Origin: Vulcanisaeta sp. JCM 14467
GTDB taxonomy: Archaea > Thermoproteota > Thermoprotei > Thermoproteales > Thermocladiaceae
DNA length: 64,000 bases
Reading direction: 5' to 3'
Assembly (NCBI RefSeq): GCF_001316245.1
Contig: NZ_BBDM01000011.1
Span: forward strand, 1 to 64,000
Shown here: positions 30,544 through 54,515 of the stretch, piece after piece
How positions within the stretch are numbered: position 1 is the first letter of the stretch
How the letters are laid out: the number at the start of each line of letters is the position of its first letter
Notes under the pieces: generated by a model
Told to the model about the DNA's origin: nothing
The model's database searches: none
What the model saw: only the letters and a program-made list of their open reading frames with translations
Made by a program: the position numbers and the translations under genes

Positions 30544-30599
30544 TGGTGATGATGCTCGAGAGGTTTGACTCGATGATAATAACGCAGGCCTTGCTGAAT
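30544..30599 (+). ncRNA. Candidate C/D-box sRNA (less certain)
   Basis: C box GTGATGA (30546-30552), 12-nt guide, D'-like TTGA (30565-30568), 5-nt spacer, C'-like TGATAA (30574-30579), 14-nt guide, D box CTGA (30594-30597). An AACTTAATTAGG element is centred about 27 bp upstream, much like the promoter of the sRNA at 53090. D' differs from CTGA and the second guide is two longer than usual, and a short open frame (starting MLERFDSMII) covers the same bases, so this is a weaker call than the other three. Confidence 0.4.
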
Positions 30600-42682: not shown

Positions 42683-42738
42683 GCGGTGATGAGCACGTCG
42701 GTAGCTGATTAAATGAGGATGGTCAGAGGTGCTGAGAT
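42683..42738 (+). ncRNA. C/D-box sRNA overlapping the METTL5-like gene start
   Basis: Complete archaeal C/D architecture: C box GTGATGA (42686-42692), 12-nt guide GCACGTCGGTAG, D' box CTGA (42705-42708), 5-nt spacer, C' box TGAGGA (42714-42719), 12-nt guide TGGTCAGAGGTG, D box CTGA (42732-42735). A TTAAATA box is centred about 25 bp upstream inside the PhoU gene end. Such RNAs guide 2'-O-methylation of rRNA or tRNA, at the base paired to the fifth guide nucleotide before D or D'. The C' box overlaps the ATG of the downstream gene. Confidence 0.74.
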
Positions 42739-52535: not shown

Positions 52536-53006
52536 ATGATATTCGTAGAAACCCTAGTTTACGTGGTTAAGGACGGTAGGGTCTTGTTAATAAGGAAGAA
52601 GCGAGGCCTAGGCGCCGGTTACTATAACGGAGTCGGCGGCAAGATCGAGAGCGGCGAGGACGTAGTCTCGGCGGCAATTAGGGAGTGTAGGGAGGAAGTT
52701 GGAATAGAACCCAGGGACTTGGAGTGGATGGGCCTATTGGAATTTTGGAATTATGAGGATGGTAAGGTCGAGTCCGTTCACTTCGTCCACGTATTCATAG
52801 CCCACGACTTCAGCGGCGTGCCCAGGGAGTCCGAAGAGGCCGAGCCAATCTGGTTTGGCATTAATGAGGTTCCGTACAGTAACATGTGGAGTGATGACGT
52901 ACTATGGCTGCCCAAGGTATTGAGTGGTAAGAAGGTCTATGCCAGGTTCGACTTCGATCGCTGGAGGTTGATTGGTGGTCAGGTCTTTGAGTTGGTTAGG
53001 GGTTGA
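52536..53006 (+). CDS. Nudix hydrolase, MTH1-like
   Basis: Intact 156 residues. The Nudix box GGKIESGEDVVSAAIRECREEVGI is complete (G-x5-E-x7-R-E-x2-E-E-x-G-I). VHFVHVFIAHDFSGVPRESEEA resembles 8-oxo-dGTP-type hydrolases. It would clean the nucleotide pool. Its stop codon abuts the 3' end of the minus-strand C/D sRNA at 53005. Confidence 0.86.
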   Translation: MIFVETLVYVVKDGRVLLIRKKRGLGAGYYNGVGGKIESGEDVVSAAIRECREEVGIEPRDLEWMGLLEFWNYEDGKVESVHFVHVFIAHDFSGVPRESEEAEPIWFGINEVPYSNMWSDDVLWLPKVLSGKKVYARFDFDRWRLIGGQVFELVRG

Positions 53007-53057
53007 TCAGTCACGCCCTCGATCCTCACTACTCAGTCGTGTCACTAATCATCACTG
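53005..53057 (-). ncRNA. C/D-box sRNA (left member of divergent pair)
   Basis: Read on the minus strand: C box GTGATGA (53055-53049), 12-nt guide TTAGTGACACGA, D' box CTGA (53036-53033), 4-nt spacer, C' box TGAGGA (53028-53023), 12-nt guide TCGAGGGCGTGA, D box CTGA (53010-53007). All spacings are ideal. A TATA-like ATTATTAAGG lies about 26 bp upstream (53078-53087). Guides 2'-O-methylation of an unknown rRNA or tRNA base. Confidence 0.75.
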
Positions 53058-53059
53058 AA

Positions 53060-53087
53060 CAACTTAATAGGGCGCCCCTTAATAATC
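53060..53087. promoter_or_regulatory. Interlocked divergent promoter for two sRNAs
   Basis: AACTTAATAGG (53060-53070) is 26 bp ahead of the plus-strand sRNA; ATTATTAAGG (minus strand, 53078-53087) is 26 bp ahead of the minus-strand sRNA. The perfect palindrome GGGCGCCC lies between. Each TATA falls within the other promoter's core region, so the two may compete for TBP/TFB. Confidence 0.48.
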
Positions 53088-53089
53088 CT

Positions 53090-53142
53090 TGGTGCTGAGT
53101 CCTTCCAGGACTGAGCAGTGAGGAGAAAACCGACCACTGAGC
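53090..53142 (+). ncRNA. C/D-box sRNA (right member of divergent pair)
   Basis: C box GTGCTGA (53092-53098; one mismatch to RTGATGA), 12-nt guide GTCCTTCCAGGA, D' box CTGA (53111-53114), 4-nt spacer, C' box TGAGGA (53119-53124), 12-nt guide GAAAACCGACCA, D box CTGA (53137-53140). The spacings match those of the divergent partner and of the sRNA at 42683, and C' is the same TGAGGA variant. The first guide contains an AGTCC/GGACT self-complement across its edges, which may reduce its activity. Confidence 0.7.
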
Positions 53143-53739: not shown

Positions 53740-54515
53740 TTACGCCAAGGATATTGCGCCATCAACAACGACAATAGCGCCATTCATATAGGACGAATCA
53801 TCGGATGCAAGGAATAGTACTACCCTGGCTATCTCGGTTGGATCAGCAAATCTGCCAGGGGGTATCCTTTGAAGGAACATTTTTGTGAAGTCCTCATACG
53901 TTGCCCCATAGGCAGACGCGGCCCTAACAGCCATTGGCGTACTAACCATCCAGGTGCCACAGCATTAACCCTAATACCCCTATTACCATACTCTACCGCC
54001 ATGCTCTTCGTAAGCATGATCAAGCCAGCCTTGGACACTGAGTAAGGCATTGCAAGTGGTAATGGCCTTATACCAGCCACTGAGATTATATTTACAATAA
54101 CACCTTTACCACGCCTTAACATTTCAGGTATTGCGTACTTACTCATTAACCAAGCACCCTTCAAATTCACATTAACAACCCTATCAAACTCCTCCTCGGT
54201 AAAGTCAGCAGATGGCTTAGCTTTTGGTAAGTCAATACCTGCATTATTTATTAAAATTATCTAATTGACCTAATGTCTCACAGTCTCCCTAACCACATTC
54301 TCACAATCACCGGCCTTAGAAACATCGGCATGTATGAACATTGCATCACCACCATTATTTCTAATCATGCTGACGGTCTCCTTACCACCATTATCATTAA
54401 CATCCACAACGACCACCCTAGAACCCTCACTAGCAAACAGCAACGCAATAGCCCTGCCAATACCACTACCAGCCCCAGTTACAATTGAAACTCTACCATC
54501 CAGTTTACCTATCAA
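53740..54515 (-). CDS. Short-chain dehydrogenase/reductase (frameshifted)
   Basis: About 255 residues. The NAD(P) motif [16 protein letters not shown] is at residues 13-28; the catalytic YSVSK lies in [24 protein letters not shown] carries the catalytic Ser; the end [18 protein letters not shown] is the standard SDR C-terminus. Breaks near 54265, and near 54010-53960 after VNAVAPGW. It resembles 3-oxoacyl or glucose/alcohol SDRs. It is the right-hand boundary of the sRNA region and may serve the catabolic island. Confidence 0.8.

Follow-up and report, generated by a model that had tools for sequence, protein, structure and literature searches.

Head-to-head box C/D guide RNA genes with overlapping core-promoter-like sites in Vulcanisaeta

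Archaeal box C/D sRNAs, including the Pyrobaculum, Sulfolobus, and Thermoproteus sets, carry C, D′, C′, and D boxes and two 12-nt guides, with matches in 16S rRNA and tRNAs that follow the N+5 rule. The dual guides of one C/D RNA are expected to have targets within 100 nt, and a tRNA guide beside a targetless guide has been described in Pyrobaculum (PMC7994747). According to the same source, most archaeal C/D genes are thought to be without a promoter of their own, and 20% had a TATA-like motif (PMC7994747). Clustered and polycistronic C/D genes, as well as tRNA-C/D fusions, have been described (Tripp 2017, cited in PMC7994747), while the genomic-context section of PMC7994747 names no arrangement in which divergent C/D genes overlap in their core promoters. 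A C/D guide has also been suggested for Gm18, a modification that occurs in archaeal tRNAs and for which no stand-alone TrmH/TRM3 homologue was identified in archaea, per PMC7912444.

Divergent initiation from very short regions is known from P. furiosus, where BRE-TATA-BRE promoters use one symmetric TATA, the divergent starts lie about 49-50 bp apart, and the products are presumed to be noise (PMC6640164). Bidirectional promoters in E. coli, made of -10/-35 elements, likewise overlap in opposed orientation, such that binding one way blocks the other; among five that were studied, steric competition was absent at basal strength and appeared only upon a strong rise in one direction (PMC12825309).

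The window analyzed here is a stretch of 64,000 nt (contig C11:1-64000) from a Vulcanisaeta assembly (G000) of 2.44 Mb and 81.6% completeness. Vulcanisaeta is a heat-loving archaeon. Rightward of the end of a plus-strand NUDIX gene (PF00293; 52536-53006, stop codon 53004-53006; identified from the open reading frame list and a family match), two box C/D sRNA genes were read directly from the sequence, lying head to head. We refer to the minus-strand RNA as A-, to the plus-strand RNA as A+, and to both as pair A. From its C box GTGATGA (53049-53055, minus strand), A- continues through the D′ guide TTAGTGACACGA (53037-53048), the D′ box CTGA (53033-53036), a GTAG spacer, the C′ box TGAGGA (53023-53028; pattern hit C11:53023-53054:-), and the D guide TCGAGGGCGTGA (53011-53022) to the D box CTGA (53007-53010), which adjoins the NUDIX stop codon on the opposite strand. 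A+ has the same order, with the variant C box GTGCTGA (53092-53098, plus strand; TGATGA in G010), the D′ guide GTCCTTCCAGGA (53099-53110), the D′ box CTGA (53111-53114), a GCAG spacer, the C′ box TGAGGA (53119-53124), the D guide GAAAACCGACCA (53125-53136), and the D box CTGA (53137-53140). The flanks from seven genomes, judged by eye only, suggest short terminal pairings (UUG/CAA and GUU/AAC in G000). The first-pass annotation of this DNA had proposed two complete, back-to-back C/D RNAs, both with 12-nt guides, 4-nt D′-C′ spacers, and a TGAGGA C′ box, all of which the G000 sequence bears out; the close spacing stands as well, although the distance, given there as 34 bp between the RNAs, is 36 bp when measured between the C boxes.

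The anatomy of A- and A+ is that of box C/D sRNA genes, beyond chance. Using our own box-and-spacing score, each RNA reached 31.7, above every one of 1,748 overlapping null placements in which other G000 sequence stood behind a C box (maximum 21.8), and each has the C/D boxes and spacing, A+ with its variant C box. When both strands of the 64-kb window were scanned for RTGNTGA, four candidates scored at least 22, A- and A+ tying for the highest. The other two were a solitary C/D sRNA at 42686-42736 on the plus strand (score 31.3, 12-nt guides), whose guides have best 23S matches of eight Watson-Crick pairs at 2058 and 2101, and a weaker C/D-like candidate at 30547 on the plus strand (score 23.7). 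Searches with Rfam at gathering thresholds matched three tRNAs and no C/D family in the window. A model trained with members of pair A and of a second pair, B (model R1), matched A- (C11:53006-53055:-, E=1.7e-9); the A- sequence is itself in the training set, and matches of this model to pairs A and B are not independent.

Pair A was sought by DNA search in 41 genomes, and both RNAs were found in seven of the 12 genomes of the genus (G000, G002, G003, G004, G007, G008, and G010). Searches at E≤0.01 gave no match in G001, G005, G006, G009, and G011, several of which are incomplete assemblies. The gap between the C boxes ranges from 35 to 43 bp in the seven genomes, while the guide cores stand out in the alignment as invariant or nearly so, the exception being the A- D′ guide, which is altered in G004. 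The A+ D′ guide core, TCCTTCCAGGA, is invariant in all seven, and the A+ D guide shows a single A-to-G change, in G008. The boxes are less uniform. The C′ box of A- is TGAGGA in six of seven genomes, and its D′ box reads CCGA in three of the relatives, with TTGA in G004; in A+, the D′ box is CGGA or CAGA in five of six relatives, and the TGAGGA C′ box, which the first-pass annotation took as a variant common to both RNAs, is replaced by TGACGA or TGATGT in all six. The GC palindrome GGGCGCCC at the center of the gap, which that annotation had placed between the TATA-like boxes, was considered as a conserved element and rejected, being present in this species only among the seven genomes. Outside the genus, a relative of A- was present in G021, with no C/D partner within 200 bp upstream. 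A partial A- like sequence in the same genome (contig C81, locus L011 100-330), seemingly without a D′ guide and close to the end of a contig, may result from misassembly. A match in G012 is, by eye, a different C/D RNA that has boxes in common with A-.

To describe the gap between the two genes, we built a 15-bp matrix by expectation-maximization from the 60 bp upstream of the 45 tRNA genes of G000. It converged on AAAAGCTTAAAA, a BRE plus TATA whose start falls between -33 and -38 in each of the 45 genes. Applied to pair A, the matrix found one site per strand. The plus-strand site, AACAACTTAATAGGG (53058-53072; BRE-like portion 53058-53062, TATA CTTAATA 53063-53069), scored 4.9 bits (genomic p=0.006, shuffle p=0.010), and the minus-strand site, CAAGGATTATTAAGG (53077-53091; TATA ATTATTA 53080-53086), scored 1.4 bits (genomic p=0.029, shuffle p=0.028). 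Both TATA-like boxes had been placed 26 bp from their own RNA by the first-pass annotation; measured from TATA center to C box, this holds for the plus side (26 bp, center 53066), the minus side being at 28 bp (center 53083). The centers are 17 bp apart in G000 and 15-18 bp apart across the seven genomes, and each lies about 10 bp from the C box of the other RNA, in keeping with the earlier claim that each box sits inside the other core promoter; therefore, two complexes should not fit together, and mutual exclusion at the promoter would follow from this geometry. Among relatives, the plus site is retained at p≤0.006 in six of seven genomes and is weak in G004 (p=0.12), while p is below 0.03 for the minus site in four of seven. 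In the window, a BRE/TATA-like site stands on each strand at the distance typical of the genus, whereas the minus side is weak in G003 and G008 (p=0.37 in both) and in G004 (p=0.30).

Targets of all four guides were sought in the 16S, 23S, and 45 tRNAs of G000 using the N+5 rule. The A+ D′ guide forms 10 Watson-Crick pairs and one G-U pair, including the N+5 position, with the D-loop of tRNA-Ala (UGC, CGC, and GGC), which exceeds the nine matches to rRNA or tRNA that the first-pass annotation had expected of at least one guide. The N+5 position is G18, as read from the tRNA genes. Shuffled versions of this guide reached 10 pairs in the tRNA set in eight of 400 cases, about 2%, a figure that refers to one guide and one target set and is less striking given that four guides and two sets were compared. 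The tRNA-Ala target sequence was present in all seven genomes that carry pair A (a pattern search gave matches in 16 of 21 genomes), and the same D-loop also occurs in genomes in which pair A was not detected. Based on this pairing, the A+ D′ guide most likely directs Gm18 formation in the three tRNA-Ala isoacceptors. The second guide of A+ is an orphan, with no convincing target despite its near-invariance: its best matches were seven Watson-Crick pairs (16S 507) or eight with one G-U (23S 429), and a search for an exact 11-mer target returned only the sRNA itself in five of the six matching genomes, with two additional sites in G002. A+ is thus like the Pyrobaculum RNAs that hold a tRNA guide beside a targetless one (PMC7994747).

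The best or joint-best matches of both A- guides were in 16S rRNA. Its D′ guide forms eight contiguous Watson-Crick pairs, including N+5, with 16S 1315-1326 in G000, G002, and G007 (G000 numbering) and 11 pairs in G010; among the five genomes with full-length rRNA that were scanned, the match was lost in G004, where the guide has changed. The D guide forms eight contiguous Watson-Crick pairs with 16S 1281-1292, 34 nt from the D′ target, and has rival 23S sites, one of them equal in Watson-Crick pairs. Eight or more pairs in rRNA were reached by 49 of 300 shuffled D′ guides and by 139 of 300 shuffled D guides, so that the eight-pair match of the D guide is individually not beyond chance. The A- targets are supported by the closeness of the two 16S sites, which fits the expectation for dual guides (PMC7994747), and by the 11-pair match in G010. 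By alignment, the sites correspond to E. coli 1357 and 1323. The search recommended by the first-pass annotation thus yielded candidate targets for A+ D′ and A- D′ and no convincing target for A+ D: the A- D′ guide most likely directs 2′-O-methylation of 16S G1319, and the D guide probably, though less surely, that of G1285. Elsewhere in G000, a C/D sRNA at C1:94629-94679 has guides that match 16S 1018 and 1324 with 10 Watson-Crick pairs each, the latter position adjoining the predicted G1319.

The layout of pair A recurs, which is what is new beyond the first-pass annotation. Counts of divergent C-box pattern matches relative to the control were 73 versus 9 in the 12 genomes of the genus, 47 versus 29 in 13 other genomes of the family, and 28 versus 23 in 16 genomes of other families, a raw excess that overstates true pairs; some matches overlap each other. 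G000 had eight pattern matches, three of which (pairs B, D, and E) showed C/D anatomy on both sides. Loci were scored from among the matches listed, with one match each for G001, G006, G009, G027, G028, G031, and G038. In a first batch that was fetched and scored, seven of 40 loci passed on both sides at p<0.01, and nine of 30 further loci passed, two entries (L153 and L158) being already in the first batch and a third (L157) being pair A of G010. One candidate pair that passed on both sides came from another family of the order (G028, L168). If 50 to 130 C/D genes were scattered randomly, numbers that are assumed and were guided by counts for other hyperthermophiles (PMC7994747), the chance of at least four such pairs would be 2e-10 to 4e-7; because genes cluster in intergenic gaps, the true probability is less extreme. 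By eye, a further locus in G004 (1742155-1742319) is likely a divergent C/D pair, with a wider gap that holds TATA-like boxes.

Pair B (C2:202163-202317, both strands, head to head) was found by exact-motif search and looks to be built on one central TATA. Its C boxes are 52-60 bp apart with the TATA-like element TATTAAAAA midway, and in four of five genomes (G000, G004, G007, and G011) the TATA was called at the same center, within 0-2 bp, on both strands; in G010, the minus site was called elsewhere. Matrix scores were modest: four of the five genomes have one strand at p about 0.11. For all four of its guides, the best or joint-best match lies in 16S, at 472, 490, 493, and 511 (8-9 Watson-Crick pairs; no shuffled control). 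The target stretches 486-497 and 489-500 overlap, and this one rRNA region may be contested between the two RNAs or served by each in turn.

Pairs D (C1:121816-121872) and E (C3:198436-198491) occur on both strands and have C/D anatomy on both sides (p≤0.003 in G000) with degenerate D′ and C′ boxes; both were also present in relatives, and the model R1 had no row for either in G000 among the matches listed. Their guides differ from those of pair A, while the geometry is similar, with 38-43 bp between C boxes and two TATA centers 15-24 bp apart. Some sites were weak, namely the minus side of D in G000 (p=0.10) and one side of E in G007 (p=0.21) and G003 (p=0.19). Their guides were matched to targets with no shuffled control: the D′ guide of the pair D minus RNA forms 10 pairs with the D-loop of three tRNA-Pro and the plus RNA has its best matches in 23S, while the D′ guide of the pair E plus RNA forms 11 pairs with the T-arm of several tRNAs, and one guide of its partner also matches tRNAs.

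We consider it probable, with substantial reservations, that pair A comprises two conserved guide genes that face outward from one 36-bp region with overlapping core promoters, with targets as proposed above, and that it is one case of a recurrent Vulcanisaeta layout. A- and A+ would be transcribed outward from this region, each TATA, 26-28 bp from its own RNA, sitting where the DNA of the other promoter would melt, about 10 bp from the other RNA. TBP and TFB would then probably assemble in one direction at a time on each DNA molecule. The recurrent layout would most likely be a compact, co-inherited promoter region, with guide genes packed around either a shared TATA (B) or a pair of interlocked TATA boxes (A, D, and E), and we infer that steric exclusion would be a by-product, and not a proven switch. 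This explanation is favored because the C/D anatomy is beyond chance and the pair is kept in seven genomes with near-invariant guide cores, because the tRNA-Ala match is accompanied by the tRNA-Ala target in all seven, because a matrix derived from other genes finds promoter-like sites on both strands, and because pairs D and E have similar geometry. It is weakened because the minus site is weak in three of seven genomes and the A+ D guide is an orphan, because the A- matches in G000 have only eight pairs, often reached by shuffled guides, and because both RNAs are downstream of same-strand genes in a group where most C/D genes are thought promoterless.

Set against the described systems, pair A resembles the BRE-TATA-BRE promoters of P. 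furiosus in what would be divergent initiation from a very short region, and pair B resembles their layout; unlike them, pairs A, D, and E have two TATA-like boxes at a distance of 15-24 bp, and the RNAs made in the two directions would both function as guides, whereas the P. furiosus products are presumed noise (PMC6640164). The opposed overlap is like that of the E. coli bidirectional promoters, whereas the elements here are of the TBP/TFB type and the products sRNAs (PMC12825309). With clustered archaeal C/D genes pair A shares close grouping, but, being head to head on opposite strands, it is not one transcript (PMC7994747). If real, the arrangement would let one ask, in a small natural system, whether the same DNA can be shared by two archaeal pre-initiation complexes and whether promoter overlap determines how much of each of two RNA-modification guides is made relative to the other. 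Specific predictions for Vulcanisaeta follow as well, Gm1319 in 16S and Gm18 in tRNA-Ala, the latter bearing on a modification without an identified stand-alone archaeal enzyme (PMC7912444).

Stronger versions of this explanation appear unlikely to us. In one, the interlocked two-TATA region would be a standard module in which each firing produces one guide at its partner's expense, such that pairs A and D set the ratio of rRNA to tRNA methylation. A somewhat more doubtful proposal, close to the coupling that the first-pass annotation had suggested, is that the overlap is a true regulatory switch, transcription in one direction suppressing the other and tuning 16S against tRNA-Ala methylation. 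The overlap is conserved in pair A and repeated at D and E, and in both A and D one RNA has its best or joint-best matches in rRNA and its partner in a tRNA D-loop; however, pair E matches tRNAs on both sides and pair B matches 16S on both sides, so this pairing of rRNA with tRNA is not general, numbers being small. Moreover, bidirectional promoters in E. coli at basal strength showed no measurable competition (PMC12825309). The effect of a clash would depend on promoter strength, which might suffice in guide genes whose promoters resemble those of tRNA genes.

Less probable again is that one bidirectional TATA serves both RNAs of pair A, the second AT-rich box serving only in melting or as an initiator. 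Archaea are known to have shared-TATA promoters (PMC6640164), and pair B, in the same genome, looks to have one, but in pair A, with its C boxes 35-43 bp apart, a central TATA would be about 18-21 bp from each RNA, and two separate sites are present at the right distances. A shared TATA for pair A was rejected on this spacing, since starts about 50 bp apart would be expected.

Finally, the least probable of these readings, in our view, is that the RNAs, though real, are processed from longer transcripts or read-through, the AT boxes being no more than incidental features of an AT-rich gap. A+ starts 85 bp past the stop codon of the NUDIX gene on its own strand, and open reading frames on the minus strand from 53740 rightward point toward A-, about 690 bp away; the general scarcity of C/D promoters and the weak minus sites also agree with processing, but the plus site lies at the distance seen for tRNA genes, and read-through would leave the recurrence of head-to-head pairs with two such sites unexplained. 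By eye, three neighboring open reading frames among those on the minus strand (53740-54515) look like pieces of one short-chain dehydrogenase gene.
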